A stretch of 61,400 nt of DNA from a virus. This document shows, one piece after another, positions 205-55,819 of this stretch. The notes beneath the pieces were generated by a model, which ran no database searches, was not told the DNA's origin, and was given only the letters and a program-made list of their open reading frames with translations. A program made the position numbers and the translations under genes. The stretch's first letter is position 1, and each line of letters starts with the position of its first letter. Where the stretch lies: positions 1-61,400 of the IMG/VR virus record IMGVR_UViG_3300009502_000053. The stretch is one strand, 5' to 3'.

Positions 205-213
205 TTAATGATA

Positions 214-630: not shown

Positions 631-633
631 ACT

Positions 634-10736: not shown

Positions 10737-10914
10737 ACTGGATAGAGATTTGATGGAATTTCATATAGTTATGAAAGATGTTTTTGGATCTTTTGATATT
10801 CTTAATGATATAGAATATGAAGATTTACCAGCAGTATATCAATTTGCTAAAATAATTTTGAATTATACAAAAATGACGGAAGCCTTAAAAGAATTAAAAA
10901 ATGTAGTTATTTAA
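10729..10914 (+). CDS. Small helical protein of unknown function
   Basis: 61 residues from the ATG at 10729 (MNKLDRDLMEFHIVMKDVFG). I prefer this to upstream starts because it overlaps the previous stop, as most genes here do. Acidic and helical, no motif. Its end overlaps by 21 bases the end of the nuclease gene on the other strand. Confidence 0.5.
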   Translation: MNKLDRDLMEFHIVMKDVFGSFDILNDIEYEDLPAVYQFAKIILNYTKMTEALKELKNVVI

Positions 10915-20394: not shown

Positions 20395-20772
20395 ATGATA
20401 TATAAATATTTTGATTTTATTAAAGAAGGCGCTACAAGTGATGGTTCACCAATTTATTGGGAAGATCAATTAAAAGAAATAATTGAAAAGGAATGGATTG
20501 ATTTTTCATCATCAAGATATACAGGCGACATATATCATATTAATTTTAAAGTTAATGATGGTAGTAAATATCCATATTATTCAGTATTAGTTAAGAATGA
20601 AAGTTCAGATGTTTATATATTGGAAGATGGTATAGCAGAAAATTTTATTCAAAAATTTAGAAATGATTTTTATAGAAATGTTGAAAAATATCTTCCAGGA
20701 TTTAAAAAATTTAAACCTAAATGTATAGGTGATTGGAATCAATTAGATATGGCAATTAAATATAATGTATGA
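20395..20772 (+). CDS. Leader-tagged protein
   Basis: 125 residues. It starts MIYKYFDFIKE-G, a variant leader with Phe-Ile-Lys-Glu at 8-11, close in shape to MKTYxxFIxE. The body has a strand-rich middle (YHINFKVNDGSKYPYYSVLV) and ends AIKYNV; the stop overlaps the ATG of the next tagged gene by 4 bases. First gene of a three-gene tagged run behind a TATATATAA box. Confidence 0.7.
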   Translation: MIYKYFDFIKEGATSDGSPIYWEDQLKEIIEKEWIDFSSSRYTGDIYHINFKVNDGSKYPYYSVLVKNESSDVYILEDGIAENFIQKFRNDFYRNVEKYLPGFKKFKPKCIGDWNQLDMAIKYNV

Positions 20773-21296
20773 AAATAAAAAGATTTAAAGAATTATTAGA
20801 AGATGTTGGAGATAAATATGCTGAATTGAAATTTAATATTCCACCAAAATTTTCAGAATTTGATAAACAATACAGAAGAAGATATAACAATATTGGTCAA
20901 GAAATTATATTTAAAGATGGTAGGAGAGTAATCTTAAAAAATCCAAAAACTTTAGAAAATATTGGACCTTGGGTTAGAGGAATTATCGATAATAAAGGTA
21001 ATTTATATATTGAACAAGAAGCTATGAATATTCATGACCCATTAATAACAATAGTTAGCAATTTAGGTCTTGTTAATCATAATGTTACAACTTGGCATAT
21101 TGAAAATCCAAATAATCCATTTGTTGGATTTATAACAGTTCAAAGAAAAGATGATGGTAATATATTTTTAGGAGAATCTAATATGTGGTATACTGATAAT
21201 GAAGAAATTTCTTATAGCATATTCCAAGAATATTTGAATAAAGCCAGATTAAGAAATCCAGGTATACATTTTACAAATAAAAGAATAAATAGATGA
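20769..21296 (+). CDS. Leader-tagged protein, paralogue of its downstream neighbour
   Basis: 175 residues. The leader MKIKRFKELLE is joined directly to DVGDKYAELKFNIPPKFSEF. That body recurs in the next gene (DVGDIYAERKFKIAPKFSEF), including RxxNIGQEI, ILKNPKTLENIGPWVRGIID, TVQRKDDGN and a NPGIxF end. The shared fold is unrecognised. Stop and next start overlap by 4 bases. Confidence 0.7.
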   Translation: MKIKRFKELLEDVGDKYAELKFNIPPKFSEFDKQYRRRYNNIGQEIIFKDGRRVILKNPKTLENIGPWVRGIIDNKGNLYIEQEAMNIHDPLITIVSNLGLVNHNVTTWHIENPNNPFVGFITVQRKDDGNIFLGESNMWYTDNEEISYSIFQEYLNKARLRNPGIHFTNKRINR

Positions 21297-22129
21297 AAAT
21301 TAGAAGATTCAATGATTTATTAAATGAACTTAAATTTGAATTTTTAGATGATATCTATTATTTAAGAGAATATACTCAATATCATCAAATACCCCATAAT
21401 AAATCTTGTGAATGTGATAATTGCGGATATGCTAATTTTATGAAACATGATACTTTTGATATTATTGGTTTTTGTAATACCACAATAGGATATATGTGTA
21501 TATTTCAATGCCCAAAATGTGGTGAGGTATATAGACATCATATTACACCAGATAGATATGATTTTGATGAATTTAAAGAACGTCTTGGTATTCTTATGAG
21601 TTTGAAAGGAGAGCCAGTTCTTGAAGATGTTGGTGATATATATGCAGAAAGAAAATTTAAAATTGCACCAAAATTTTCAGAATTTGATCTTAAATATAGG
21701 AGAATGAAAAATACTTCTGGTCAAGAAATTGCGTACAAGGACAATAAAGTTGTTATATTAAAGAATCCTAGAACTTTAGACAATTTAGGTCCATATATTA
21801 GAGGCGTTATAGATTACAAAGGAAATTTATATGTAGAAGATAAATCTACATTGATACATCATCATTTATTAAATAGATTAGATAGAATTGGCGTAATAAA
21901 AGACGTTCAAGATTGGGGAAATGACATTCCGACGAATTTTGTAACTGTTCAAAGACAAGGTGATACTAATATAATTAGAATAGGAGAATCTGAAGATGAT
22001 TATAGTTATATGAAGTTATTTCAAAGCTTTTTAGATAGAGCAAAAATAAAAAATCCTGGTATAGAATTTGAAAATGTTCAAGTTAGAAATACTCCAGGAT
22101 TATCACCATGGATTGATGATGATTTTTAA
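21293..22129 (+). CDS. Leader-tagged chimera: zinc-ribbon insert plus paralogous domain
   Basis: 278 residues. Leader MKIRRFNDLLNE, then about 95 residues absent from the upstream paralogue, with CECDNCGYANF and FQCPKCGEVYRHH (a four-Cys zinc ribbon), then the shared DVGDIYAERKF domain to the end. Leader and C-domain therefore flank an inserted or swapped module. The end overlaps the thymidylate synthase end (opposite strand) by 4 bases. No KYNL-type tail. Confidence 0.7.
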   Translation: MKIRRFNDLLNELKFEFLDDIYYLREYTQYHQIPHNKSCECDNCGYANFMKHDTFDIIGFCNTTIGYMCIFQCPKCGEVYRHHITPDRYDFDEFKERLGILMSLKGEPVLEDVGDIYAERKFKIAPKFSEFDLKYRRMKNTSGQEIAYKDNKVVILKNPRTLDNLGPYIRGVIDYKGNLYVEDKSTLIHHHLLNRLDRIGVIKDVQDWGNDIPTNFVTVQRQGDTNIIRIGESEDDYSYMKLFQSFLDRAKIKNPGIEFENVQVRNTPGLSPWIDDDF

Positions 22130-29425: not shown

Positions 29426-31069
29426 TCAAGTTTTTAAAATTTTTATAGCATCAGTGAAATACTGAGGTAGTATATGCGAATTATATTTTAATAAATCAGA
29501 AAAGTTGGAATCTAAGATAAAGGTATCACAAAAATCCTCATCATTTCGAACTCCGCGGCCTACCATTTGTAGCAATTCAGAGACAGTGGTGTTAGAATAA
29601 TAATCTTTATTGGAATTTTTTCTTGCCACAATTTGTTTTGATCCTAATGATGGATATGGTATTTTTAATATGATACTAAAACGTGCACTATCATTTTTTA
29701 AATCTACTCCGCTGCCCATTGATGGTGAAACTATTACTGTTGGTTCCACACTTTCTAAATGCTTTTCTAATATTTCATCACGATTTTCTGTATTGTGAAA
29801 TAATAATCTTTCATTTTGTATATTTTCTTTAACCCATTCAGAAATTTCGTATGTTGTACAGTGAATTATACCTTTTTTATTTTTATATTTTTTTAAAATT
29901 TTATTAATCCAAGGTAATTGATTTTTGAATGTTTCTTCTTTACTATACATATTCATTTTTCCAATACCTTTTATATAATATATCGGTCTATTTTCTAATT
30001 TAAATGGTGTATCAATCTCAAAGTATGATGTTAATTTAGGATCTAATCCATTAATAGATGAAAAAACTTCTTCAGATATTAATGTAGCTGAGGTGAAAAA
30101 AATATGATCGTAATGTTGATAAATTTTATCGTTTAGGAAGTCGCTAACCCATATATGAGAGCTAATCAATTCACAACCAGAATACATTTTATCGTTTTTA
30201 TTAATATTTACATCAAGAACTATATTATTTGGATTATTTTTGTATGATTCAAATAATTGTTTAAATGATGATAATTTACTTTTTATATTTTGAATAAATG
30301 AACTCAATTCAATTCTTTTTTTTGTATTAGCGCCTCCAGATATTTCTTTTTCAAATTGAGATTCTTTTGATTCTAAATCTGGTATTAATTTTCTTTCTAA
30401 AAATTCAAGATATTTATCTAAATATTTAATTTTTGATATGTATCTTTCATCATATCGTTCTATTTCTTTTAAATTAAATCCACATTTTTTTAAAGTTTTA
30501 GATGAGACTTTGGTATCTAAATAGGTTGAAAAGATACCTTCTAAAAGATGACACTCATCGACGATCAGTACATTAGCATCTCTTCTTTTAAGTGTATCTT
30601 GCTGAAAAAGTGATAATGTGCTGAAAAGATGAAAATTGGTTAGAGATAAGTCTCCAGCAATCCATTTATTTTTTGCTATTTCATATGGACATGCTGTACA
30701 TCCACCTGCTTTTAATATAGTGTGTAATTCCTTAGCTGTGCCGCAGTCTGTATTATATTTATCGCAATAATAATTTGATCTACCTTTATAGTTGTTGATA
30801 AAATCAAAATCTTTTAGATACTGCTGTTGCAAAACTTTTGAGCCAGTTATTATAGTAAATTTTGCACTTTCGTTTATGAAATTTCTATACCAATTACTTA
30901 ATAGTGATGCACTTATGAAGCTCTTACCGACTCCAGTTGGAAGATTTAATAAAAAAAACTTTTTATTAGAAATTATTGATTTTTTTATAAAGTCTAGTGT
31001 TTGAATTTGATAATCTTTTGGAATAAATCGTATCGGAAACCATATTTTTTTATCACCTATTTCAATCAT
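29426..31069 (-). CDS. DinG/XPD-type Fe-S DNA helicase
   Basis: 547 residues, superfamily 2. Walker A LPTGVGKS at 43-50; four Cys at about 102, 109, 124 and 127 in the place of the XPD/DinG iron-sulphur cluster; Walker B variant DECH at 171-174; C-terminal motifs VSPSMGSGVDLKND and LLQMVGRGVRNDEDFCD with the arginine finger. Unwinds DNA 5'-3' in known relatives. It leads a minus-strand unit with three unknown genes; the nuclease gene at 31079 is just upstream. Role in phage replication, repair or R-loop removal is inferred. Confidence 0.85.
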   Translation of the reverse strand: MIEIGDKKIWFPIRFIPKDYQIQTLDFIKKSIISNKKFFLLNLPTGVGKSFISASLLSNWYRNFINESAKFTIITGSKVLQQQYLKDFDFINNYKGRSNYYCDKYNTDCGTAKELHTILKAGGCTACPYEIAKNKWIAGDLSLTNFHLFSTLSLFQQDTLKRRDANVLIVDECHLLEGIFSTYLDTKVSSKTLKKCGFNLKEIERYDERYISKIKYLDKYLEFLERKLIPDLESKESQFEKEISGGANTKKRIELSSFIQNIKSKLSSFKQLFESYKNNPNNIVLDVNINKNDKMYSGCELISSHIWVSDFLNDKIYQHYDHIFFTSATLISEEVFSSINGLDPKLTSYFEIDTPFKLENRPIYYIKGIGKMNMYSKEETFKNQLPWINKILKKYKNKKGIIHCTTYEISEWVKENIQNERLLFHNTENRDEILEKHLESVEPTVIVSPSMGSGVDLKNDSARFSIILKIPYPSLGSKQIVARKNSNKDYYSNTTVSELLQMVGRGVRNDEDFCDTFILDSNFSDLLKYNSHILPQYFTDAIKILKT

Positions 31070-33933: not shown

Positions 33934-34254
33934 ATGAATATAAAAAGATTTAATGAATCAAAAGAAAATAATATTATCAAAGAATTTGATGATAAAAGAA
34001 CTGAATATAATAAAATTCAAAAAAAAGTTTTTGAATTGATTTATGATTATTATTCTCTTTATCCTGATATGTTCTGGAAGAATTACGGTTATGACGGTGA
34101 GACTATTGTAGATGCGTATTTATATGAAAATTTGTTACATATAAAATCAACTAGTGATATTTCTTTTACATTAGCAGGAAAGCATTTTAAAGATTTTTTA
34201 ATATATGTAAATGACCCAGAATCATATAAAAATAGAAATAAATATAATTTATGA
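33934..34254 (+). CDS. Leader-tagged array protein 1 (LLNEY/NPE-YKN family)
   Basis: 106 residues. Leader MNIKRFNE-S (Phe-Asn-Glu at 6-8). First member of a paralogous set with a central helix (VFELIYDYYSLYPDMFWKNY) and a C-terminal block ending NDPESYKNRNKYNL. It follows a TATATAAG box (about 33923). Stop and next ATG overlap by 4 bases. Function unknown. Confidence 0.75.
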   Translation: MNIKRFNESKENNIIKEFDDKRTEYNKIQKKVFELIYDYYSLYPDMFWKNYGYDGETIVDAYLYENLLHIKSTSDISFTLAGKHFKDFLIYVNDPESYKNRNKYNL

Positions 34255-34646
34255 AAATTCAGAGATTTAATGAATCTATTCCATATCCTCATAATTCAAT
34301 TGGTGATAAAAGTACTAATTTTTTTAAAGATAGTAAATTGTCAGAGTATTTTGATGAACAAAATAAATTCCTTAAAATAAAAGGAGATATGTTGAATTTA
34401 ATCAATGAATACGTTGATTTAAACGATGAAAATAGAGATTATTTTTTGGAAGAATATGAATTACAACCTGGTGATATTATTGATTTTTCTGTTGAACTTA
34501 TAAATAGTGAGCCATATAAAAGGCTGGCATTAAAACTTATTAAAGAAGGTAATATTAATTATATGAGAAATGTTGATTTTAAAAAAATGGTTGAATTTAT
34601 AAATAATCCAGAGATGTTTAGAAATCAAAAGAAATTTAACTTATGA
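34251..34646 (+). CDS. Leader-tagged array protein 2 (same family)
   Basis: 131 residues. Leader MKIQRFNE-S, body with MLNLINEYVDLNDENRDYFL, end NNPEMFRNQKKFNL. Longer than member 1 through an acidic insert near residue 30. Coupled to both neighbours by 4-base overlaps. Confidence 0.75.
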   Translation: MKIQRFNESIPYPHNSIGDKSTNFFKDSKLSEYFDEQNKFLKIKGDMLNLINEYVDLNDENRDYFLEEYELQPGDIIDFSVELINSEPYKRLALKLIKEGNINYMRNVDFKKMVEFINNPEMFRNQKKFNL

Positions 34647-35029
34647 AAATTCAAAAATTCAATGAATCATATCAAGGCGATAAAATTATAAATCAATATA
34701 ATAATAGTATTATACGAAAATATAATATTGATTATGAATTATCTAAAGCTAGATTAGAAGATTCTAGAAATAATATATTGAAACTTTTAAATGAATATGT
34801 ATCAATGAATATATCTTATTTTGTTAAAAAATATAATAACTGGGGTGCATCTTATACAGTAAAAGATTTTAATTTTGATGTTGGTAGTGATAAAAGACCG
34901 TATTTTACATTAAGCCATTCAAAATTTGATTTTGATACAATTGAATTAAAATATATCGATATTGTAAATTTATTTAAGTTTTTAGAAGATCCAGAATTAT
35001 ATAAAAATCAACAGAAATTTAACTTATGA
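34643..35029 (+). CDS. Leader-tagged array protein 3 (same family)
   Basis: 128 residues. Leader MKIQKFNE-S, central ILKLLNEYVSMNISYFVKKY, end EDPELYKNQQKFNL. The first 24 bases closely match those of member 2, and so does the 3' end, so homology is highest at the gene edges. Confidence 0.75.
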   Translation: MKIQKFNESYQGDKIINQYNNSIIRKYNIDYELSKARLEDSRNNILKLLNEYVSMNISYFVKKYNNWGASYTVKDFNFDVGSDKRPYFTLSHSKFDFDTIELKYIDIVNLFKFLEDPELYKNQQKFNL

Positions 35030-35286
35030 AATATATAATGTTCTTTGAATCTTTTCCGTTTAATCAATCATTAAAAATTGGTGATTATGTTGAACTTATT
35101 GATAATGATGAAGGTAGACTTGATGGATATTGGCAAATTGAGGATATTAAACTTGATACATTTAAAAAAACTAAAACTGGATGCATTTATGAACTTGTGA
35201 GGGGCGAAGATACATTATCAGAAGAAGGGAATAATTTGAGAAAAGTTCCAGAAGAAGAATACAACGCTAAGAAATTTAACTTATAA
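35026..35286 (+). CDS. Leader-tagged array protein 4, unrelated body
   Basis: 86 residues. Leader MKYIMFFE-S, then a short SH3-like beta domain (SLKIGDYVELIDNDEGRLDG ... GCIYELVRGED). It resembles the 55035 and 55511 products, which also have GDY/GDIV segments. It ends EEYNAKKFNL although the body is unrelated to its neighbours, so the tail is not merely inherited with the family. Confidence 0.7.
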   Translation: MKYIMFFESFPFNQSLKIGDYVELIDNDEGRLDGYWQIEDIKLDTFKKTKTGCIYELVRGEDTLSEEGNNLRKVPEEEYNAKKFNL

Positions 35287-35287
35287 T

Positions 35288-35728
35288 ATGAAAATTAGAA
35301 GATTATACGAAGATGTGCATGATGATATTATAGAAGCTGGTGAAAGAGAAGAAATGGAATATAAAGCTGCAGAAGAATATATTTCAAATAATCTTAAAGG
35401 TAGTAAATTGAATAATTTTAATAATTTACAAAATGAGTATTTTGAAACAAAGAAAGAGATATTAAAATTACTCAATGAATATACCGAAATAAGAGATAAA
35501 GAAGATCCTGAAGATCATGGTGGTTATTGGCTGGGTCAATATGGATTTGATCATGGAGATATAAATAAGGTAGAAATTGTAAATCATCAATATTTTGGAA
35601 GATGTTTAAAAATAAATGTCTCTTTTAGTAATGAAGATTTTTATATGAGATCAGTAGATTTTCAAAATTTTTTAAGATATGTAGAAGATGCTGAAACATT
35701 TAAAAATATGAAAAAATTTAATTTATGA
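35288..35728 (+). CDS. Leader-tagged array protein 5 (LLNEY family)
   Basis: 146 residues. Leader MKIRRLYE-D, acidic helix, EILKLLNEYTEIRDKEDPED, a GGYWLGQYGFDHGDINKVEI segment like member 2, end EDAETFKNMKKFNL. Here the start is 1 base after the previous stop instead of overlapping it. Confidence 0.75.
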   Translation: MKIRRLYEDVHDDIIEAGEREEMEYKAAEEYISNNLKGSKLNNFNNLQNEYFETKKEILKLLNEYTEIRDKEDPEDHGGYWLGQYGFDHGDINKVEIVNHQYFGRCLKINVSFSNEDFYMRSVDFQNFLRYVEDAETFKNMKKFNL

Positions 35729-36006
35729 AAATTAAAAGATTTACTGAATCATTAGATGATGATATTTATTATAAAGGTACTATTACACATGATTTTACAA
35801 TAAAAAGATCAGATTTTCTTTATATTGTAGATACAGCATATAATAAAGATTGGGTAGAATCTAAAAGTAAAGTAGAGGTTTTATATGAATATCTTAAAGC
35901 CAGATTAACATTATTTGAACATAAAGTTAATTATATAGCTGTAGATAAAGATGGTAAACCTATTGATGAAGATCAATATGATAAAATGACAAAATTCAAT
36001 TTATGA
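35725..36006 (+). CDS. Leader-tagged array protein 6, unrelated body
   Basis: 93 residues. Leader MKIKRFTE-S, then a body not in the LLNEY family (FLYIVDTAYNKDWVESKSKV). It ends YDKMTKFNL. Four-base overlaps at both ends. Confidence 0.7.
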   Translation: MKIKRFTESLDDDIYYKGTITHDFTIKRSDFLYIVDTAYNKDWVESKSKVEVLYEYLKARLTLFEHKVNYIAVDKDGKPIDEDQYDKMTKFNL

Positions 36007-36341
36007 AAATTAAAAGATTATATGAGTCAGATGAAAAAATTGAGTTAGATAAAAAACTTGATATATTTGATTATTTTAGAAAAAGATATATAGTTGATGA
36101 AACTACAAAAAAATTACTAAAATTAATTAATGAGTATATTAAGATTAATGCCAAACATTTTCATCTTTATTATGCCATTAATAAAAATATTAGAGGTGTT
36201 GAATTTTTTGAACCTTTTGATTTGTTTTTACAAGATATAGATAAACGTGATTATAAATTAAACACTGATGATTTTAATGATCTTTTAGATTTTATAGAAG
36301 ATCCTGAAGTATATAAAAATAGAAAAAAATTTAATTTATGA
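36003..36341 (+). CDS. Leader-tagged array protein 7 (LLNEY family)
   Basis: 112 residues. Leader MKIKRLYE-S, LLKLINEYIKINAKHFHLYY, end EDPEVYKNRKKFNL. Last gene of the first array run, yet it keeps the KFNL tail; its stop TTATGATTATTGATTTC still looks like the start of another tagged gene. Confidence 0.75.
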   Translation: MKIKRLYESDEKIELDKKLDIFDYFRKRYIVDETTKKLLKLINEYIKINAKHFHLYYAINKNIRGVEFFEPFDLFLQDIDKRDYKLNTDDFNDLLDFIEDPEVYKNRKKFNL

Positions 36342-36537
36342 TTATTGATTTCTATTTTTATATTTGAACCCATTATTAATATGATTACTAAACAATTCAT
36401 CTAGTATTTTATTATATAACGCCATATTATTATTTTATTTTTTAAATGACATCATTGTAAAATATTTAGATATTATACATTATATATAAATAAATTGAGA
36501 TGTAAATTTAATATATACACTAAAAACTAAATTAAAA
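36342..36537. other. Gap between array halves, with a leader-like relic and a late-type promoter
   Basis: About 200 bases without a clear gene. The first 30 bases (ATGATTATTGATTTCTATTT onward) resemble the start of the gene at 37688 but stop after 9 codons, and F-I-F-E-P appears in the +1 frame, so it may be a dead leader. TATAAATA at 36485-36492 probably drives the gene at 36538. A 27-codon minus-strand frame near the middle is not convincing. Confidence 0.4.
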
Positions 36538-36888
36538 ATGACAGATTTTAAAAATGATGATATAGTTTCTAGATATTTCGATATTGTACAAGAGAAGATA
36601 AAGAAATTGATATCTGAAGATAAGGAAATTAAACCAAGTCAGATTGAAGAATTTAACGATCAAATTTTCAATCAACCTGAGGAAGTTCAAAATCAGATTA
36701 GATTATATATTGATAAAGCAACTATGAATAATTTGGATCTTGATAAAGTGGCAAAGATTATATATGATAAATTTAAGGTACAAACTAAGAATAATCACTT
36801 TGACACAAAGGATACACAACCTGTACCAAATCCAATGCTTGGTGAGAGAAAGCATATAAAAACATTTGAACAGTTTAATGATAACTAA
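36538..36888 (+). CDS. Acidic protein ending in a leader-like sequence
   Basis: 116 residues with no N-terminal leader (MTDFKNDDIVSRYFDIVQEK). The last residues are ERKHIKTFEQFNDN, almost the MKHIKTFE/MKHLKTFE leader of other proteins but at the C-terminus. The next tagged gene starts inside this end, at 36878, in another frame. This could be a fusion to the leader of a lost gene, or a signal used at the C-terminus. Confidence 0.65.
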   Translation: MTDFKNDDIVSRYFDIVQEKIKKLISEDKEIKPSQIEEFNDQIFNQPEEVQNQIRLYIDKATMNNLDLDKVAKIIYDKFKVQTKNNHFDTKDTQPVPNPMLGERKHIKTFEQFNDN

Positions 36889-37303
36889 CTTTAAACTATT
36901 TGAAGGTAAATATGTTAATAAGTTTGATTTTGAAATTGATCAATCATATGAGTATGATGATTTACCTAAAAAAGTTCAAAAAGATATAGATGTTCAATTT
37001 GAAGAAGAAGAAGAATATGAGCCTGATGATTACAATTATATTTTTAAATTATTACCATTAGAAGAATATGGTGAATATGTGGAAAATGCATTTGGACAAT
37101 ATGATATAGTAGATGCTATGGAACATTCATATATGAAAAAATTAGTTAAAGATATTGAAAAAAGAGGAATTGATTATCCATCTGTTGGATTTGAAGGTAA
37201 TCACAGAGCATTAGCATGTTATATGATGAATAAACCATTACCATATTTACAAATGGAATTAAAAAGTGAAGAAGAATTAGAAAAAAAATATAATGGAGAA
37301 TGA
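36878..37303 (+). CDS. Leader-tagged protein with a ParB/Srx-like GNHR motif
   Basis: 141 residues from ATG 36878, giving MITNFKLFE-G; an in-frame TTG at 36866 is less likely. The body has YPSVGFEGNHRALACYMMNK, resembling the GxHRxxA loop of ParB/sulfiredoxin-like domains (an ATP/CTP-binding fold). Acidic otherwise. It ends KKYNGE, not the usual tail. The match is short, so the fold call is tentative. Confidence 0.7.
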   Translation: MITNFKLFEGKYVNKFDFEIDQSYEYDDLPKKVQKDIDVQFEEEEEYEPDDYNYIFKLLPLEEYGEYVENAFGQYDIVDAMEHSYMKKLVKDIEKRGIDYPSVGFEGNHRALACYMMNKPLPYLQMELKSEEELEKKYNGE

Positions 37304-37698
37304 TAACAACATTTAAATTATTCGAAGATTCATATTTCCATTCAATTGAGACAATTGATGAAATATTAGATAAAATTACAGATTATGGCTACGAGAATTT
37401 AGATGAGTCAGATTTAGCAATTCTTATGAATTATTCTAAAGATGATGAAGATATTCATGAGATATTACTTACTATGAATGAGATGACTAAAAAATTCTTA
37501 AAATTGAATGATCAATTAAAAATTATAACCAAAGGTGACGAGGCTCAATTAGAAAAAGCTAAGAAAGAATGGTTTGAATTACATTCTAAGATGGCTGAAT
37601 ATGAAAATAAACTGAGATATTTATATAAAATTGAAGATGTTAAAGATATTTGGAATTATCAAAAACAACATAATATAATGCCAAAAAATGATTATTAA
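37300..37698 (+). CDS. Leader-tagged helical protein
   Basis: 132 residues. Leader MITTFKLFE-D, then acidic and basic helices including ILDKITDYGYENLDESDLAI and a coiled-coil-like KLNDQLKIITKGDEAQLEK. It ends NIMPKNDY. Overlaps neighbours by 4 and 11 bases. It resembles small chaperone- or scaffold-like proteins in composition only. Confidence 0.7.
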   Translation: MITTFKLFEDSYFHSIETIDEILDKITDYGYENLDESDLAILMNYSKDDEDIHEILLTMNEMTKKFLKLNDQLKIITKGDEAQLEKAKKEWFELHSKMAEYENKLRYLYKIEDVKDIWNYQKQHNIMPKNDY

Positions 37699-38074
37699 TT
37701 TTAAAATATTTGAGGAATATGGTGAGATTAAAGAAAAATCTAAAGTATTTTGGGTTGTTGATCATGATGAAAATTTTGAAGTTAGCTTATTTAAGATTGG
37801 TATGTCAATTGCAACCATTGAAAAATTTAAAGCTCATTTAATAAAAAATATGGATGATGGAGCTAAACATTATTATTTTGGATATGATCCAGAAGTAAAA
37901 AAAGAAGGTATTGTTCAAAGAGTGTGGTCTTATGATGATTATAATTATGTATCAGGCGCAAATTCATTTGTAGATAGTTTTTATAAATATATGGGGCATG
38001 TTGAAGTTGATGATAATGATAAATGGATGTATGAGATTAGCAAAAAAGGATATGTAACTAAATATAATTTATGA
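37688..38074 (+). CDS. Leader-tagged protein, related to 39047 and 52274 products
   Basis: 128 residues. Leader MIINFKIFE-E. The segment KVFWVVDHDENFEVSLFKIG, then TIEKFKAHLIKNM and YYFGYDPEV follows the same order as the 39047 and 52274 proteins (FYWALKNDPKKFKKQLKKIG; YWLLPTDERFEKSLEEIG). It ends VTKYNL. A small paralogous family, function unknown. Confidence 0.7.
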   Translation: MIINFKIFEEYGEIKEKSKVFWVVDHDENFEVSLFKIGMSIATIEKFKAHLIKNMDDGAKHYYFGYDPEVKKEGIVQRVWSYDDYNYVSGANSFVDSFYKYMGHVEVDDNDKWMYEISKKGYVTKYNL

Positions 38075-38367
38075 TAACTAATTTTAAAGTATTTGAATCT
38101 TATGTCGAGAAATTTAAACTTGGTGATAGAGTTTATTATTGCCCGCTTGGAGAACTTGGACCTAATGGTGCTTATATAGTTGTTGGAACTAAAAAACCAA
38201 GAAGAAAAATTGAATCACAACAAATTATGGCAAAAAATGAAAAAACAGAACTTTATAAAAATAAATATTTTGATCAAGATACTGGATTTAATAAAGAAGA
38301 TAATTGGATAGAATCATATAAATTTATATCTGAAGATGAATATAATACAATGAAATATAATATATGA
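38071..38367 (+). CDS. Leader-tagged small beta protein
   Basis: 98 residues. Leader MITNFKVFE-S, then KLGDRVYYCPLGELGPNGAY, an SH3/KOW-like start, and a basic stretch. It ends YNTMKYNI. Four-base overlaps on both sides. Confidence 0.7.
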   Translation: MITNFKVFESYVEKFKLGDRVYYCPLGELGPNGAYIVVGTKKPRRKIESQQIMAKNEKTELYKNKYFDQDTGFNKEDNWIESYKFISEDEYNTMKYNI

Positions 38368-39050
38368 AATACATTAAAACATATGAAAAATTAGAACTAT
38401 CTGGAAAGCATTCATTTTTTATGTTTTTACAGATAATATCTAATCATGATTATCATTTCATATTAAATGATCATTATACTAAATTATATAGCTATCATTT
38501 CTTCTTTTCAACTGAAACTATTGAAAAAGTTGATGAATATATTGAAATATTTAAGTTTAAACATTCATTAGCATCATCATATGAAATCTTGAAAAAAATA
38601 AAATCAAATAAATTGGCATTCTTTTTCGGTATAAAAGAGAATTCTCTTTTAAGATATGGTTTTTTAGATTTAGACACTCAAAGAAGTTATGTTGTTGGTG
38701 AATTTAATATAACTAACGGATATTTTAGAGAAATTTCAAAATATAAAGCACTTCAGTCTGTAAATAAGATTATTCAAAACTTAAATGTTAAAAGTTTATC
38801 AATATTAGCAAAAGTTAAACAAGATTTTTCTAAATTCTATTCATCAAAAAAGAGTTTGAAAATTAGAATTGATGATAATAAAGTTATTAATTACTTCAGT
38901 AGAGACCAATTCACTGATGATGATATTAATATGAATAGATTATATAGAACATTAGACCAATGGATATCCAAAAAATCCTGGAGAAATAATGTTGAGTTTA
39001 GTGTTGATGACACTGGAGATCCAGTACAATTTATAATAATTGTAAAATGA
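38364..39050 (+). CDS. Leader-tagged 228-residue protein
   Basis: Leader MKYIKTYEKLE. The body is larger than most array members, Phe/Tyr/Ser-rich, with no motif found; its sequence runs ...IKKIKSNKLAFFFGIKENSLL and ends PVQFIIIVK with no KYNL tail. A 20-base perfect palindrome (TAAAAGAGAATTCTCTTTTA, 38632-38651) lies within. Coupled to both neighbours. Confidence 0.65.
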   Translation: MKYIKTYEKLELSGKHSFFMFLQIISNHDYHFILNDHYTKLYSYHFFFSTETIEKVDEYIEIFKFKHSLASSYEILKKIKSNKLAFFFGIKENSLLRYGFLDLDTQRSYVVGEFNITNGYFREISKYKALQSVNKIIQNLNVKSLSILAKVKQDFSKFYSSKKSLKIRIDDNKVINYFSRDQFTDDDINMNRLYRTLDQWISKKSWRNNVEFSVDDTGDPVQFIIIVK

Positions 39051-39376
39051 AATATCTAAAAACATTTGAAGAAAATAAAAGAGAAATTGGTAAATTTTAT
39101 TGGGCACTTAAAAATGATCCAAAAAAATTTAAAAAACAACTTAAAAAAATAGGCTGTCCTGAAATAACAGTTAAAAAATATACAAATAAACTATATTTAT
39201 TTGATGAAGATACATTATTTGTTGGTGTAGAATCTACTATTGATTATAATAATTGGTCTATGAGCAGTAGAGGATTAAATTTTACTGGATATGAATATAA
39301 AGGTCCAATTATTTTATCAAGAGATGAATTAGATGAAATAGAAGCAGAAGAAAAATCAATGAAATATAATTTATAA
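39047..39376 (+). CDS. Leader-tagged protein, last of the array
   Basis: 109 residues. Leader MKYLKTFEE-N, followed by IGKFYWALKNDPKKFKKQLK and YLFDEDTLFVGVEST, the same order as the 37688 and 52274 products. It ends KSMKYNL before a TAA with no downstream overlap. A short hairpin (39386-39405) follows. Confidence 0.7.
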   Translation: MKYLKTFEENKREIGKFYWALKNDPKKFKKQLKKIGCPEITVKKYTNKLYLFDEDTLFVGVESTIDYNNWSMSSRGLNFTGYEYKGPIILSRDELDEIEAEEKSMKYNL

Positions 39377-39464: not shown

Positions 39465-42400
39465 ATGATAAACCAAAAGAATACCTTTGTCTCATTAGCA
39501 GAACAATTAGCACTCTTAAATAAGAATTCAATTGAAGTTATGACTAAACTAAATGACGTCGTAACTAGTAGAAATTCAGTTGTTAATGTTAGTTTGATGA
39601 ACAGTGATGGAACATCATCTACTTACCAATTTCCAACAGTAGGTCAGTTAAAAAATGAATTGGATATAGCCAATAGAAATATAAGAAAATTGGCTGGTCT
39701 TGCTGATTCAACAGCTTATGTATCAGATGGTACAACTATGAGAAGAGTTTATGTTGACGACTTAAATCGTGAACCAGAACCAATTGAAAACCTAAATACA
39801 GTATCAAAATTCGTATCAATTAATAATTCATTCTTTGAATCTCTTTCTAACCCTATGCTGGCTATTGAATTAGATTTGACTGATAAAATAGATAGAAAGG
39901 TAAATAAAGTATTATCTAGAAGATATATCATTGAATTTCAAAAAGATTCATCTGGGAATTATACAACAGATGGTTTAACATCTAAAAAAGATTTTGAGAC
40001 AAGATTCTTAAATAAGAATAATATTTCTATTGATGATTTAACAGTTTGGTATAATAATCCAAAAAATTATGGAGTGGTATATTATAATCAACCATATGAT
40101 GAGCAACAATTTGATTTAGATTATGAACAATTAAAATATTATGGTACTTTTGATGTTGTTGGTATTGATAATGATACAATTAATAAAAAATTATGGTATG
40201 TTTTAGGATCTATAACATATTATGATTATTCTGGTAATACAAATACATTATCAATTGGCGATGAATTAATTATTAATAAGAAAGATTCTTCAACAAAATG
40301 GATCATTAAAGAAGTTAGTACTGCCAAATCAAACTTTAGAGTTATTTTAGAAAGAACAGAAGGGTTAGAGCCTGTTCCAGTTATTTTACAAGCATTAAAA
40401 TTTTATAGTCCAACTTTATCTGACAAATCAATTAAAGTCACAATTGGATATGATGAATATAATGTGATTTTTATTAAACCAATTAATACTGATGCTGGAA
40501 TTGTTGCCTCTACTTGGTCATATGGTACTTGTTTTTATAGTAATGATTTAGTATTAGATACAAATGATACAGTCTCAATGACTAAATATTATGCAGAATC
40601 TGTGTATGATTATGGTGCAATATTAAAGGATATGATTGTTAAAAATATTCCTAGTAAATATGGATCAATTCCAAATGTTCCAGTTTTAGATAGTAGTAAC
40701 TTTAAAGTTGTTCAAATTAATAAACATTTGACAGATAGTGCAAATTCAACTAAACTTAAAGAGTTACAATCACAAAAAACATCAGTACAATCTCAGTTGA
40801 GTCAATTGAATGATGCTATTGCTCAAAAAACTAAGGAAGTTAGTACTAAGCAATATAAATCGGTTTCTGATAAACAAGCAGCACAAAATCAATTGAATTC
40901 TTTAATTGATCAACAGAGTTCTCAAACCAAATTATATACATCTATTGTAAATAGAATTAGTGCTGAAAACACTGGAATAGTTTCAACTGAAACACCAAAA
41001 TTTAGAATTCGTGGATTTTGGAGTTTTCCAGCGCCTATTGTCACAAACACTTCAGGACAGCAGCAAAAACAAGAAGTGATACAATTTAAGATTCAATATA
41101 GATATAGTGCTAAAGGCGGATCAGAACCAACCACAGAAGGTTTTAATCTTAATATGACTCAGACATTTTATACAAATGCTCCGACAACTGGTGATATCAC
41201 AGATCAAACTAAAGCATATACTAATCCTAGTGTTTCAACACAAAATTCAACTGTGACTGGTTATTTTTCTAATTGGATTCCAATAACAAGTGATGTTAGA
41301 CAGAGAATTTATAATAGTGCATTGGATGCTTGGAGTTGGGTATCAGAAGATGTCACTGATGCAAATGCACCAAATATAAATCAATTGGATATTTCAATAC
41401 AACAAAATGAAAAAGTTGATATTAGAGTTAAATCTGTTTCCGAAGTAGGTTGGCCAAATGCTCCGATTGAATCTGATTGGAGTCAAATAATGACAATTGA
41501 ATTTCCAGATGATTTATCACAAATAACTGATAGTTCTGCTATTTTACAAAATGCTCAAACTGAGCAAATTTCAACCCAATTGTTGAGTAATTTTAATTCA
41601 ATGGGTTTGACAACACACTTACAGCAATCATATAATGTTAATGACTTATATGTCGCTCATCAAGATGTAAATTTAGGTACATCTTACAAAGATGCTAATG
41701 GTAATGTTATAATGTTGAATGCATATTTGAAAATATTAACAGATAAAATATCAGCACTTGAACAAACTATATTACGTGCTAAAGGTGAACTTGTTGTTAA
41801 ATTACTTAGAAATTCTAATGAAATTTTAATAGATAATGGAGCATCAGTTAGTGTAGCAATTCGTTGTGAAGAATATGCAACATTATATGGTGGTACATCA
41901 AGAAAATACTATAATAATATTTATTCTATTGATGATTATTATTTGCAATTCGAAAACGCATCTACAAGTAATCAATTAGGATTACTTTCATATAGAAAAT
42001 ATATTCCTAGTGTTGCTGGTGATAATAGATTTTATAATACAGCAGTTGCTAACGGATCTTTAGCTACATATGTTGATTCACTTGATAAATTAAATCAGCA
42101 AGTAGATAATCAATTTATCTGGATATCTGATTCTTCTGGTACTAATCCTATTTATAATTCAGGTTTAACTAATGATGCTAATGGAAAAGGACAAGTTCTT
42201 TATTCACAAAATTGGAACCTTGGAATATCAAATACCTCAACACCATTTAGTATTTTTGATTCAGTTACTTGGAGCGGAATTACTATACCTAATCCTACTG
42301 ATTATGAAACTGATTTCCCAGTTACTGTTCACCCTTATATTGAAAATATCAATAATTATATTTATTCAGATAAGGGTGGAGTAAAACTTATAAATGCAGG

Positions 42401-42638
42401 TACAAAATTCACTTTACCAATTAAAATATTCTTTAAATTGACTAGTGGATCAACTGATACTATAGAATTTCCATCAAATATGTCAACATCACCTTCTGTG
42501 AATAGAAAATTAAGGATATTCTTAGAACAAGAAAGTGCCAGTAGACCATTTGAGTTTGAAGTTAGCTTCCAAATATTTAGAAATAAGACATATACAACAA
42601 GAACACTTAATAGTCCAGACACTTCAACAATGCTTTAA
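39465..42638 (+). CDS. Large virion protein, probable baseplate/tail component
   Basis: 1057 residues. A helical N-terminus (LAEQLALLNKNSIEVMTKLN), Tyr/Asn/Asp-rich beta regions, a coiled coil at about 425-500 (LKELQSQKTSVQSQLSQLND), then a fibronectin-like domain (FRIRGFWSFPAP ... WSQIMTIEF) and a C-terminal beta domain. Size, composition and position next to two other large structural genes and uvsY suggest a baseplate-type protein; no specific T4 counterpart can be named. Preceded by a TATATATAATA box. Confidence 0.75.
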   Translation: MINQKNTFVSLAEQLALLNKNSIEVMTKLNDVVTSRNSVVNVSLMNSDGTSSTYQFPTVGQLKNELDIANRNIRKLAGLADSTAYVSDGTTMRRVYVDDLNREPEPIENLNTVSKFVSINNSFFESLSNPMLAIELDLTDKIDRKVNKVLSRRYIIEFQKDSSGNYTTDGLTSKKDFETRFLNKNNISIDDLTVWYNNPKNYGVVYYNQPYDEQQFDLDYEQLKYYGTFDVVGIDNDTINKKLWYVLGSITYYDYSGNTNTLSIGDELIINKKDSSTKWIIKEVSTAKSNFRVILERTEGLEPVPVILQALKFYSPTLSDKSIKVTIGYDEYNVIFIKPINTDAGIVASTWSYGTCFYSNDLVLDTNDTVSMTKYYAESVYDYGAILKDMIVKNIPSKYGSIPNVPVLDSSNFKVVQINKHLTDSANSTKLKELQSQKTSVQSQLSQLNDAIAQKTKEVSTKQYKSVSDKQAAQNQLNSLIDQQSSQTKLYTSIVNRISAENTGIVSTETPKFRIRGFWSFPAPIVTNTSGQQQKQEVIQFKIQYRYSAKGGSEPTTEGFNLNMTQTFYTNAPTTGDITDQTKAYTNPSVSTQNSTVTGYFSNWIPITSDVRQRIYNSALDAWSWVSEDVTDANAPNINQLDISIQQNEKVDIRVKSVSEVGWPNAPIESDWSQIMTIEFPDDLSQITDSSAILQNAQTEQISTQLLSNFNSMGLTTHLQQSYNVNDLYVAHQDVNLGTSYKDANGNVIMLNAYLKILTDKISALEQTILRAKGELVVKLLRNSNEILIDNGASVSVAIRCEEYATLYGGTSRKYYNNIYSIDDYYLQFENASTSNQLGLLSYRKYIPSVAGDNRFYNTAVANGSLATYVDSLDKLNQQVDNQFIWISDSSGTNPIYNSGLTNDANGKGQVLYSQNWNLGISNTSTPFSIFDSVTWSGITIPNPTDYETDFPVTVHPYIENINNYIYSDKGGVKLINAGTKFTLPIKIFFKLTSGSTDTIEFPSNMSTSPSVNRKLRIFLEQESASRPFEFEVSFQIFRNKTYTTRTLNSPDTSTML

Positions 42639-51076: not shown

Positions 51077-51910
51077 TTATATGTTAAATTTTAGCATATC
51101 TTCTTTCACATTCCAGACATCAAGAACTTTACAATAGAATAGTTGTGTAAATTTTATACCTAAGACTTCAGTATGTGCTTTTACTTTAGCTGTTAATTTT
51201 ACAGTGTCCCCGTCTTTTACATCTTTGCCAATGTCATATACTTTATATTTATTACCATCCTCATCAATTAATTTACATTGCATTTGAAGTTTATTATTAT
51301 ATTGACTTGGAACTTTTTTAGCATCATAAACATCTGCTTGTATTGTGATTTTATCCCCAATTTGACCAATATGCTTACTTAAACTTTTTTCTCTATTTTT
51401 ATTGGCTACAGTTTCATAATATAGTTTAGTATAATATAGTATCTTTTCTTTCATAATAGGATCATTTCCCTTATAATTAAAATCTCTTGATAACCATACA
51501 ATATAGGTTGGATCTTCAACAAACACCTCACCAATGGTTTGACCTCTATGTTTACCTCCACTAAATATTTCTGATTTTGCAGCTTGGAACATTCCAGCCT
51601 TTGTTCCAGTTCTATCTATTATAACTGGAATCCTCCCAGCGGCTCTTTTAGCCTTTTCCACGGCTGTCATAAAGTCAGTACTAAGATTTGAGATGAAGTG
51701 ACTACTTCTAAGTGATTCTTTCCATAGAGTATAATATACACTATATCTACCAGATACATCTATATAGAAGTACCCAGTTTTATAATCCCAGTCAGGATCT
51801 ATTCCTTTTTCTAGGTATTCTTCTGCTTCTTTAATCTCATCATCAGTTGGTTGATGTAATGAAGACATTTTCTGAGCTTCATTGAATTGGCTATATTTTT
51901 GAATTTTCAT
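51077..51910 (-). CDS. Leader-tagged protein with ExoX-like C-terminal domain
   Basis: 277 residues. Leader MKIQKYSQFNE-A. The middle has FSGGKHRGQTIGEVFVEDPT, YIVWLSRDF, the signature of the small domain found after exonuclease X and in many phage proteins (GKHKGxxxxEVxxxDPxYIxWL). The C-terminal 90 residues look like an OB-type beta domain (GDKITIQADVYDAKKV ... GDTVKLTAKVKAHTEVLG), and it ends DMLKFNI. No exonuclease catalytic motif is present. The leader suggests packaging; a DNA-binding job on injected DNA is inferred. Confidence 0.7.
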   Translation of the reverse strand: MKIQKYSQFNEAQKMSSLHQPTDDEIKEAEEYLEKGIDPDWDYKTGYFYIDVSGRYSVYYTLWKESLRSSHFISNLSTDFMTAVEKAKRAAGRIPVIIDRTGTKAGMFQAAKSEIFSGGKHRGQTIGEVFVEDPTYIVWLSRDFNYKGNDPIMKEKILYYTKLYYETVANKNREKSLSKHIGQIGDKITIQADVYDAKKVPSQYNNKLQMQCKLIDEDGNKYKVYDIGKDVKDGDTVKLTAKVKAHTEVLGIKFTQLFYCKVLDVWNVKEDMLKFNI

Positions 51911-51922
51911 ATTTAGTAATTT

Positions 51923-52258
51923 TTAATCTATGCTAATGGACAAGCTTCTAACATTACCCATTTCATCAGTATATACATAACAATCAGTTTCATCTTCTGA
52001 TTGGAAATAAATCTCAACCTTAGGTTCAACATTAGAATCAATGACTACACCATATTTTTCTTCTTCAAGAACAGACTCTAAATCTCTTGCCCATTCATCT
52101 TCATCTGTTACAACGTTCCACATATCTTCACTAGTCATATGATCTTTTGGATCAATCCAATCATACTCAGGATAGGTTTCTTTAACAAGATTGTAAATTT
52201 CATCCATTTTATCAACAAATACATTATTCATGTTTTCAAAGGTTTTTAAGTGTTTCAT
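51923..52258 (-). CDS. Leader-tagged acidic protein
   Basis: 111 residues. Leader MKHLKTFEN-M. Strongly acidic, with VKETYPEYDWIDPKDHMTSE and a beta end (NVEPKVEIYFQSEDETDCYV). It ends SLSISID, without the KYNL tail. The function is not recognisable. Confidence 0.7.
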   Translation of the reverse strand: MKHLKTFENMNNVFVDKMDEIYNLVKETYPEYDWIDPKDHMTSEDMWNVVTDEDEWARDLESVLEEEKYGVVIDSNVEPKVEIYFQSEDETDCYVYTDEMGNVRSLSISID

Positions 52259-52273
52259 TTTTAATTTTATTTT

Positions 52274-52606
52274 TTATATGTTATATTTTATTGCTGTCAT
52301 TTCATCTTCTATATTTACATTCCCAGAAAACACATAATCTCTTTTATTGAAAAATACTTCTGAACTTTTTTCATAAGGCATCCAACTCCAACCACTATCG
52401 TTTTTACTTATATAAATATATTTTTGATGATATTTTTTATCATAATTTTCTTTAAAATTTAATATTGAATTAATAAATATTGGACTACTACCAATTTCTT
52501 CTAAGGATTTTTCAAATCTTTCATCAGTTGGCAATAACCAATATTTTCTTTCTATATCTGGAATACCAAACCATTTATCTTCTTCATATAGCTTAATATG
52601 TTTCAT
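52274..52606 (-). CDS. Leader-tagged protein, relative of 37688 and 39047 products
   Basis: 110 residues. Leader MKHIKLYEE-D; KYWLLPTDERFEKSLEEIGS and YIYISKNDSGWSWMPYEKSS align by eye with the 39047 product. It ends AIKYNI. Overlaps the upstream gene by one base (TAATG). Confidence 0.7.
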   Translation of the reverse strand: MKHIKLYEEDKWFGIPDIERKYWLLPTDERFEKSLEEIGSSPIFINSILNFKENYDKKYHQKYIYISKNDSGWSWMPYEKSSEVFFNKRDYVFSGNVNIEDEMTAIKYNI

Positions 52607-52959
52607 TAGAAATTATATTTATTAGATTTATCATATATGTCAGGATTTTCAATATATCTATTTAAATCATTTAAATCCTTAATCAAATATGGTTCAAGCA
52701 TATTATCAGATACATTATCTATTGGTATTACAACTACAGCTTCATCACAAGTTTCATCTATATTATATTCATAGTAAAGATTGCTTATGTGATGTCCATT
52801 TTCAAAAAAATAAAGTTTGTTAAGAAGTGAATATTCTCTTATTAAGTCGTACAATGCATCTTTGTCTGATGCAAATTTTTTTAGAGACTTTGCATTAAAT
52901 TTCTTTTTGTAGTATGGCTTAATATTTTCTCTTAATTGTTCAAATTTATTTATTTTCAT
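52606..52959 (-). CDS. Leader-tagged protein of the NPE-YKN family, away from the main array
   Basis: 117 residues. Leader MKINKFEQLRE-N; ALYDLIREYSLLNKLYFFEN corresponds to the LLNEY helix; ends ENPDIYDKSNKYNF, the family block in variant form. It lies 17 kb from its relatives and on the other strand, showing that such units move. Overlaps the CheY-like gene by 14 bases. Confidence 0.7.
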   Translation of the reverse strand: MKINKFEQLRENIKPYYKKKFNAKSLKKFASDKDALYDLIREYSLLNKLYFFENGHHISNLYYEYNIDETCDEAVVVIPIDNVSDNMLEPYLIKDLNDLNRYIENPDIYDKSNKYNF

Positions 52960-54159: not shown

Positions 54160-55038
54160 TTAATTTTCCCACACTATTTTATAATTGTAAACGCCTGGTT
54201 GCATTATGATTTCTCTTTGATTGGTGTGATAATATTCTTTTGGTAACATTTTAACATTAACTAATACATCTTCTGGTTTAGCCATCATACTTACAACGTA
54301 TGGTGTTGAAGATGGATATTCATCAATAAATCTTCTAGCAATTAACACATTAGTAGTCCAAGATGTTGCATGATTAAAATCTGATTCTATAACTTGACCT
54401 TTTTTATATGGTGGGTTATCATTAGAATAATATTTAATTTGTACTTCTTCTATTCCTTTATAAATTTTTATTGGTTCTTTGCTTTTGAATGGTTCTAATT
54501 CATCTATTATCTCTTGTGTTAATTTTGGTACTTTTAGTGATCCTGATATGTAAAGATATAGCCATCTATCTGTTTCTTCTGATAATTCTATATTTAATCT
54601 ATCAGATTTATCTTTATCATATTTTACAAATCCCCCAATCAATTTAAAACTTGTAATATCTTCTGGTTTAGTTATAGTTACTTGTATATCTCCTAGATTA
54701 TAATAAAAATATCCAGAATATATTGTTTCTTTTTTTGTTGTACCTAATAACATATTATCTTCTGAATCTAATTTGTCAAAATCAAAATTATCAAATCCAA
54801 AGAAACTATTTCCTTCTTTTTTATAGATTGAATTTTTTAATTTGATTTGATAAATATATTCGCTAGCTGTATCAGATGCATCCGCTCTATTATAAAGATA
54901 TAATCTACCATTATTAATGTTATCTTTAGTTAATGGTGTATTTGAATATAAATATACTGGACCATTATATTCATATTCCATTTCATAGAAATCTTGCTTT
55001 TTATAATCTACTAGTTCAAATGTCTTAATATATTTCAT
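54160..55038 (-). CDS. Leader-tagged mono-ADP-ribosyltransferase (T4 Alt-like principle)
   Basis: 292 residues. Leader MKYIKTFE-L. The C-terminal 110 residues have ADP-ribosyltransferase order: IKIYKGIEE (193-195, YKG instead of YRG), a Ser-x-Thr motif in ATSWTTNVLIARRF (226-228) and HTNQREIIMQPG (274-276, Gln-x-Glu instead of Glu-x-Glu, as in C3-type toxins). T4 Alt is an ADP-ribosyltransferase packaged in the head through an N-terminal targeting sequence and injected to modify host RNA polymerase; this gene has both features. The N-terminal 180 residues are unrecognised. The target is unknown. First of three adjacent genes all starting MKYIKTFE. Confidence 0.75.
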   Translation of the reverse strand: MKYIKTFELVDYKKQDFYEMEYEYNGPVYLYSNTPLTKDNINNGRLYLYNRADASDTASEYIYQIKLKNSIYKKEGNSFFGFDNFDFDKLDSEDNMLLGTTKKETIYSGYFYYNLGDIQVTITKPEDITSFKLIGGFVKYDKDKSDRLNIELSEETDRWLYLYISGSLKVPKLTQEIIDELEPFKSKEPIKIYKGIEEVQIKYYSNDNPPYKKGQVIESDFNHATSWTTNVLIARRFIDEYPSSTPYVVSMMAKPEDVLVNVKMLPKEYYHTNQREIIMQPGVYNYKIVWEN

Positions 55039-55514
55039 AAATTGAATTTTTTTATTTCTATGTATATTTCTAAATCTTTTTTATTTTTAGCCCATTTTTC
55101 AACTTTATTAAATGGTATAAAATAATCTTCATCTTCAATTCTTATTGTATAAGATTCTAATTTATCTTCTTTAGTTATAATTTCACCAATTTTATTTCTA
55201 AAAATTATATAATCTCCAACTTGAGGTTTTTTGTTATCTTCAAGTGTTTTAATATATTTTCTATCTAACTCATATTTATCAATTTCTTCTGATGTTAAAT
55301 TTCTAATTATATCATCTTGTAAAATATATTTAAATATTAAACTTTTTTGATCAATTAGTTCTACTACATAATCCCATCTACTACCTGGAAATCCTGTTGG
55401 TTTATATTTCCTTATAATTTTACATAGATGTGATGTAATATTTTTAACATAAACGTAATCATTTATTTTATAGATTAGATTTTCCTGATTTTCAAATGTC
55501 TTAATATATTTCAT
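55035..55514 (-). CDS. Leader-tagged protein with two SH3-like segments
   Basis: 159 residues from ATG 55514 (MKYIKTFEN-Q); longer in-frame starts read into the upstream gene. Two similar beta units: KINDYVYVKNITSHLCKIIR and VGDYIIFRNKIGEIITKEDK, each followed by a strand pair. It ends EIKKFNL and overlaps neighbours by 4 bases. Confidence 0.7.
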   Translation of the reverse strand: MKYIKTFENQENLIYKINDYVYVKNITSHLCKIIRKYKPTGFPGSRWDYVVELIDQKSLIFKYILQDDIIRNLTSEEIDKYELDRKYIKTLEDNKKPQVGDYIIFRNKIGEIITKEDKLESYTIRIEDEDYFIPFNKVEKWAKNKKDLEIYIEIKKFNL

Positions 55515-55819
55515 ATGTTGAGTTTGTATGATTCCCATTTCCATTCTGGGATATAATTATATGCATACCAGTGATTATTTAGTTCTCCAGTCTCAAGATC
55601 TTCAACATCTGCGGAAATAAATCTATCATTCTTGTTATAACCATAGAAATTATCAAATTCTCTATGTTCATCATCTTTATCTGAATATATTTTTACCACA
55701 CGAAATTTTTTATCAGGTCTTTCAAAAGGACCACCACTCTTTTTAATGTCCCACATAACTATATCACCAACTGAATATTCAACGTTATCTAAATTTTCAA
55801 ATGTCTTAATATATTTCAT
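55511..55819 (-). CDS. Leader-tagged small beta protein
   Basis: 102 residues from ATG 55819 (MKYIKTFEN-L), which overlaps the stop of the upstream virion gene; an in-frame ATG at 55825 would add two residues. SH3-like start VEYSVGDIVMWDIKKSGGPF. It ends WESYKLNI. It hangs directly on the end of a tail gene, so it is probably expressed late. Confidence 0.7.
   Translation of the reverse strand: MKYIKTFENLDNVEYSVGDIVMWDIKKSGGPFERPDKKFRVVKIYSDKDDEHREFDNFYGYNKNDRFISADVEDLETGELNNHWYAYNYIPEWKWESYKLNI

Follow-up and report, generated by a model that had tools for sequence, protein, structure and literature searches.

Internal-protein (Ip) loci whose products carry a capsid-targeting sequence (CTS) are described for the T-even phages by Repoila et al. 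1994, to the extent cited in PMC12373910, and in PMC9026906. Here we analyse an array of 14 small genes at positions 33934-39376 of a 61.4-kb linear viral fragment (IMG/VR record IMGVR_UViG_3300009502_000053, positions 1 to 61,400; 25.8% GC), hereafter termed the window, meaning the whole stretch of DNA under study. The array encodes proteins with a short N-terminal peptide tag (N-tag) and, mostly, a C-terminal one (C-tag). Together with its counterparts in related huge T4-like phages, it shares with the T-even loci for IPI, IPII, IPIII and Alt a short N-terminal leader on unrelated bodies, small soluble candidate cargo and variable loci, as well as a gp21-type protease (here in relatives) and an ADP-ribosyltransferase among the tagged proteins. 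It differs in scale, with 29-94 N-tagged open reading frames (ORFs) per large contig compared to three Ips plus Alt in T4; in its contiguous arrays with ATGA overlaps; in the main tag, MKYIKTFE instead of MKTYQEFIAE (the N-terminus of T4 IPII and IPIII); and in the additional C-terminal K(F/Y)N(L/I). We propose, with a probability of about 0.7, that the array is part of a hugely expanded T4-style internal-protein system, in which the N-tag would act as a CTS and the bodies would be packaged and injected cargo. We favour this reading because the body of gene 38364 carries a T4-type tag in relatives, the scaffold and four of five annotated internal capsid proteins of the isolated phage PAU are tagged, and the orthologous array of relative L011 holds an ADP-ribosyltransferase cassette.

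The 14 ORFs stand in line and comprise 86-228 codons each, in agreement with a first-pass annotation that had listed 14 genes of 80-230 codons, 13 of them tagged. The N-tag of 8-9 residues is present on 13 genes, whereas the exception, 36538, has the tag sequence at its C-terminus; the C-tag is found on 10 of the 14. Successive junction distances are -4, -4, -4, +1, -4, -4, +196, -11, -4, -11, -4, -4 and -4, so that nine of 13 junctions are 4-base ATGA overlaps, the prevalence noted before. The genes and their boundary repeat are as follows.

33934..34254, plus strand: tagged gene, N-tag MNIKRFNES, C-tag NKYNL; body paralogue of 35288
34251..34646, plus strand: tagged gene, N-tag MKIQRFNES, C-tag KKFNL
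34643..35029, plus strand: tagged gene, N-tag MKIQKFNES, C-tag QKFNL
35026..35286, plus strand: tagged gene, N-tag MKYIMFFES, C-tag KKFNL; GDYV-type body, SH3/KOW-like by eye, unrelated to neighbours
35288..35728, plus strand: tagged gene, N-tag MKIRRLYED, C-tag KKFNL
35725..36006, plus strand: tagged gene, N-tag MKIKRFTES, C-tag TKFNL; body unrelated to neighbours
36003..36341, plus strand: tagged gene, N-tag MKIKRLYES, C-tag KKFNL; precedes the 196-bp gap and keeps its C-tag without a downstream start
36538..36888, plus strand: core gene without N-tag; KHIKTFEQF at C-terminus
36878..37303, plus strand: N-tagged gene, MITNFKLFEG
37300..37698, plus strand: N-tagged gene, MITTFKLFED; joined to the 38364 orthologue in L011
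37688..38074, plus strand: tagged gene, MIINFKIFEE at the start and TKYNL at the end
38071..38367, plus strand: tagged gene, MITNFKVFES at the start and MKYNI at the end
38364..39050, plus strand: N-tagged core gene, MKYIKTYE; conserved body, different tag in relatives
39047..39376, plus strand: tagged gene, MKYLKTFEE at the start and MKYNL at the end; last gene of the array, stop TAA
34632..34650, plus strand: boundary repeat AAATTTAACTTATGAAAAT; further copies at 34240, 35015, 35714, 35992, 36327, 38060 and 39362

Homology is concentrated at the gene edges beyond chance. Among the 13 tagged genes, mean pairwise DNA identity is 54% over the first 27 nucleotides and 68% over the last 18, compared to 34% in body windows, and the same edge measure on control genes of the window gives 42% at the start and 45% at the end. 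With as many as 3 mismatches allowed, the boundary 19-mer AAATTTAAYTTATGAAAAT is found 12 times across the window, whereas 3.5 copies would be expected and no more than 8 arose in any of 100 shuffles; the boundary repeat, earlier put at about 30 bases, measures 30-40 bp. The observation of an array of tagged small genes with shared edges and unrelated bodies is confirmed. Five of the first seven genes, 33934, 34251, 34643, 35288 and 36003, are however paralogues in body as well; the bodies of 35026 and 35725 are unrelated to theirs, in agreement with the first-pass annotation.

Position matrices iterated from hand-picked seeds were trained on N-termini, with internal Met positions as control, and yielded three N-tag types, MKYIKTFE, MITNFKLFE and MKIKRFNE. 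Over four related contigs, the N-tag occurs on 151 of 1196 ORFs compared to 2 of 3048 internal Met positions, and the C-tag, scored as (F/Y)N(L/I), ends 67% of N-tagged ORFs compared to 3.4% of the others (odds ratio 57, p=8e-77). The tags are independent of the body, since the 151 tagged proteins fall into 105 body clusters and a larger set of 355 into 190, the biggest of which has 43 members across genomes. Tagged genes are spread over the genomes in arrays and clump together, with 60 adjacent pairs in contig G015 compared to 15 expected. The pattern extends beyond the array at this locus to tagged genes elsewhere. The C-tag was found only in the window and its relatives, being almost absent in the 735-kb phage LR756501 and absent from the tagged proteins of PAU and from the T4 Ips. 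Its dialect differs per phage, NKFN(I/L), KKYNIL and KKYNL in G003, G010 and G011, respectively, and looks homogenised within a genome. Searches of the literature returned nothing on this motif in huge phages and, in the literature searched, no description of the C-tag.

Comparison with relatives revealed different tags on one orthologous body. The conserved body of 38364 begins with MKYIKTYE in the window, MIKNFNDFLINE in L013, MIT.F.KY.LNE in L012, L097 and L098, and MRSYYEYIKE in LR756501, whereas the L051 copy is untagged; in G010 the orthologue is fused behind a 37300-type body via KINENN, an arrangement resembling a cleavable polyprotein. In the 36538 family, KHIKTFEQF is C-terminal in the window and internal in the orthologues, as KHVKTFENFLFE in L012 and KFIKTYENFINE in L013, close to the T4 sequence. 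In the T4 leader, residues 4 and 7 serve mainly in targeting and residues 8 and 10 in processing (PMC9026906). The T4 CTS pattern with I/L-x-E is fitted by MKTYKDYVFEA, MIYKYFDFIKE, MIKNFNDFLINE and MRSYYEYIKE, and hydrophobic-x-E by MITNFKLFE and MKIKRFNE, whereas MKYIKTFE keeps the hydrophobic spacing and not P3. In LR756501, T4-type leaders are present on 23 of 382 sampled ORFs compared to 3 of 1721 internal Met positions. The resemblance of the gene edges to the T4 CTS had been missed by the first-pass annotation; reading them as protein tags is more informative than the cassette reading alone.

Independent support comes from PAU, an isolated phage with a cognate tag. The leader MKT(L/I)xxL(Y/F)E(A/S) is found on 20 of its 298 ORFs (19 by pattern, gp270 by eye), and many of these tagged genes lie around the portal, protease, scaffold and capsid genes. 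Among its carriers are the scaffold gp152 and four of the five proteins for which the annotation reads 'internal capsid protein' (gp142, gp154, gp199 and gp270; P=7e-5). This annotation was probably not derived from the motif, because most tagged proteins of PAU do not bear it. The PAU capsid protein itself has 585 residues and 520 once processed (PMC5646251). A prohead protease of the gp21 family is encoded in G011 (phrog_207, E=5.4e-32), and a similar protein was recognised by eye in LR756501; the 61-kb window fragment holds no gp21-type protease. The G011 gene (L085:8639-11011) specifies a 790-residue polypeptide in which the protease is followed by a long scaffold-like tail with about a dozen Y(I/L)AE(N/H) repeats, as if made for self-shredding, and LR756501 also encodes protease and scaffold in one polypeptide with Y(I/L)AE(N/H) repeats. 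Close to their N-termini, the capsid proteins of both phages contain (L/M)NE, followed by N. The giant-phage heads of SPN3US and phiKZ likewise have many packaged proteins and propeptides that are cut after glutamate by a gp21-family protease. To our knowledge, cassette arrays are not known in these phages. Their propeptides are often longer than 100 residues and do not form one shared 8-residue tag (PMC5694885, PMC7411985).

The tagged proteins have a median length of 128 aa, and membrane-like segments are rare among them (2 of 270, compared to 125 of 1056 other proteins). Domains among 110 tagged representatives include one ADP-ribosyltransferase, NUDIX, P-loop kinase, SprT-like and nucleotidyltransferase; the identification of leucine-rich repeat (LRR)-like and ankyrin-like bodies is by eye alone, and PADLOC gave three weak matches on the same 110. 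The ADP-ribosyltransferase of the L011 array (L011:7577-8440) is of the polyvalent type (ART-PolyVal PF18760, E=2.5e-20), and T4 packages the ADP-ribosyltransferase Alt (PMC9026906). Apart from this domain, shared by one tagged cassette with the polyvalent proteins (PMC5512222), a multidomain polyvalent architecture was not found: the carriers here are small, mostly single-body proteins and not multidomain polyproteins. A Pfam search of ten array proteins gave no match above cut-off. The AlphaFold model of 34643 has a predicted local distance difference test (pLDDT) score of 84.8 (56 over the first 10 residues); fold searches with this model (pLDDT 85) and with that of 38364 (pLDDT 77) gave no significant PDB match.

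Altogether, the array would be a single example of the numerous small-cargo islands that a huge T4-like phage of a Bacteroidetes-infecting group carries. The N-terminal peptide M-K-Y-I-K-T-F-E and its variants (hydrophobic-x-x-hydrophobic, then E) may target a soluble body to the core of the assembling head, where the prohead protease probably cuts the peptide off after glutamate; the cargo would then be injected with the DNA, and many of these proteins are expected to act on host machinery or defences. Packaging, cleavage and injection are inferences. The C-terminal K-(F/Y)-N-(L/I), present on most cargo of the clade, may act as an additional signal, for packaging or for processing. Where it abuts the N-tag of the next gene, it creates a 30-40-bp junction repeat at which recombination could add, remove or swap whole cassettes. 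A stronger version, that huge Bacteroidetes phages mark the 60-100 proteins injected from each virion by a two-ended address label (N-terminal CTS plus C-terminal K(F/Y)N(L/I)), with abutting labels doubling as recombination sockets, is tentative, and we think it rather less probable than its negation. Should the tag indeed serve packaging, a single sequence rule would make candidates for injected anti-host proteins out of hundreds of small, anonymous huge-phage genes, the ADP-ribosyltransferase included; the T4 internal-protein strategy would then be enlarged by an order of magnitude, and the C-tag could offer a new way to load phage heads with cargo.

The shared edges could alternatively be a DNA or RNA signal for translation coupling, with ribosomes re-initiating at ATGA overlaps in hosts that use few Shine-Dalgarno sites. 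The nine ATGA junctions of the array and a TGA stop in all 114 counted overlapping C-tagged genes fit such a signal, as does the over-use of AAC for the C-tag asparagine, slightly more frequent with a downstream start (56/94) than without (38/100). However, 119 counted C-tagged genes without an overlapping downstream start, mostly with a TAA stop, keep the motif. The upstream motif precedes 50 of 66 N-tagged genes with a C-tagged gene just upstream compared to 4 of 85 without one, the latter mostly having A at -3 where the motif has T or C, and 30 tagged genes without a nearby downstream start, array-end genes (mostly with stop TAA) included, retain the C-tag; the tags therefore belong to the proteins. 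Moreover, codon choice for K, F, Y and E in the N-tag is near genome usage, and in the 36538 family the tag lies far from any start. On the upstream-motif counts and the C-tags without a downstream start, we rejected a coupling element as the main cause, and in any form we consider it improbable. With AAA, TTT, TAT and AAT used at roughly 80-93%, two abutting peptide tags automatically yield a DNA repeat of 30-40 bp, so that the shared edge DNA is mainly explained by shared peptides at this low GC content and extreme codon bias. AAC encodes the C-tag asparagine in 57% (G003) and 49% (G015) of cases compared to 8% and 12% genome-wide; this excess, array ends included, suggests that edges are additionally copied between genes. 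Recent tandem duplication within one family of an AT-rich genome, of which the edges would be remnants, accords with the five paralogues among the first seven genes and with the 43-member cluster. It is very hard to reconcile with 190 body clusters that include ADP-ribosyltransferase, NUDIX and P-loop proteins, with edges common to bodies without detectable similarity and with different tag types on one orthologous body, and we regard it as highly improbable.

The tags might also send proteins elsewhere than the head, to a replication compartment, a membrane or a degradation machine, in which case the likeness to T4 would be convergence on short amphipathic peptides. That MKYIKxFE lacks the canonical hydrophobic-x-E at P3, that the C-tag has no counterpart in the T4 internal proteins and that likenesses to metabolic enzymes (NUDIX, P-loop kinase) occur among the tagged proteins speak for another destination, whereas the cognate tag on the PAU scaffold and internal capsid proteins, the T4-type tag on the 38364 body in other phages and the tagged ADP-ribosyltransferase of polyvalent type speak against it; we judge it unlikely, while giving it somewhat more weight than the coupling signal. 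Several points count against the internal-protein system itself. The fifth PAU 'internal capsid protein', gp70, is untagged, and the PAU record gives no basis for this annotation. In G003, G010 and G015, the largest contigs and probably fragmentary ones, no portal, protease or capsid gene was detected. At P3, where T4 gp21 wants I/L, the commonest tag, MKYIKxFE, varies (T/K/R/L). Most tagged bodies have no recognisable domain, and the tagged proteins are slightly acidic on average, whereas the T4 internal proteins are basic (PMC9026906). Finally, 60-90 cargo species would be implied, far above the handful in T4.

Comparison of the same locus in relatives largely supports the earlier idea that cassettes are gained, lost or swapped at the boundaries. 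Upstream of the orthologue of 39465, the sets of tagged genes differ as whole genes among related phages. The loci show neither of the two patterns that the first-pass annotation had named as refuting, a fixed gene set or breakpoints in gene middles. In the closest relatives, L007-L010 and L014, the tagged array is replaced by a set of four genes that look by eye like glycosyltransferases and sulfotransferases. L098 has an LRR-like gene (9306-9656) that is missing in L099, with the breakpoint inside the edge repeat of about 40 bp: the L099 junction TTTAACATATGAAATACTTAAAATATTTTGAAAA consists of the left edge of the L098 cassette followed by the body of the right-hand gene. Among four close contigs, 20 of 24 indels of whole tagged genes start and stop no more than 25 bp from a junction, and their breakpoint repeats are longer than those of untagged genes, with medians of 39.5 and 18 bp, respectively (p=0.004). 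Whole-gene indels of untagged genes fall at junctions too (59 of 68), and the arrays are thus modular, though not uniquely so. A higher turnover of tagged genes was unsupported: a homologue is present in a relative for 63 of 109 small tagged genes compared to 176 of 331 others, although fewer have one at 70% identity or more (13/109 compared to 77/331, p=0.013). Of the proposed diversity-generating effector island, the modular cassettes stand, whereas diversity beyond that of the phage's other genes is not supported; an 'effector' role is suggested by the tag and by several bodies with enzyme domains.

Integrons, too, line up small genes that can be exchanged, and diversity concentrated at one locus is typical of diversity-generating retroelements; the repeats here differ from both in being coding. 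No reverse transcriptase (PF00078) was detected in the window or in the fragments G003, G010, G011 and G015, and no integrase (PF00589) in the window, G003, G010 and G015, attC sites not having been searched for; the single PF00589 integrase of G011 (2085-2594) is far from its array. On these searches of fragments, we rejected both machineries. A second small-gene array in G003 (121730-125387) has shared starts M..QN.N.GDKL and no tags, and its copy number differs between G003 and G015.

The 39465 protein has distant relatives in uncultured phages of 735 and 642 kb, Lak phages, Sphingomonas phage PAU and Tenacibaculum phages, which places the window among huge T4-like phages associated with Bacteroidetes. 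UvsW-, UvsY- and Dda/UvsW-like genes are present in the window. Eight contigs at 82% (G001-G008) are practically identical in the array region and were counted as one phage; a UvsW query for additional loci confirmed 0 relatives, and a GTDB genome scan found no host or provirus. Flanking genes and tagged genes outside the array are listed below.

29426..31069, minus strand: UvsW-like helicase (phrog_2488), untagged; upstream neighbour of the locus
39465..42638, plus strand: large conserved protein (phrog_29329), untagged; downstream anchor for finding relatives
208..1077, plus strand: two genes with the tags nearest to those of T4, MKTYKDYVFEA and MKHLSNFELFLEEN
12011..12969, plus strand: tagged gene pair (12011, 12493)
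20395..22129, plus strand: three tagged genes, 20395 with T4-type tag MIYKYFDFIKEG, 20769 and 21293
51077..52959, minus strand: four further tagged genes (51077, 51923, 52274, 52606)
54160..55825, minus strand: three further tagged genes (54160, 55035, 55511)

In addition, the window carries related-looking, endonuclease-like genes at 31079-32170, 10894-11760, 8429-9073 and 50119-51039, at least three of which have the repeated motif K(Y)DYSLV(D)Y.

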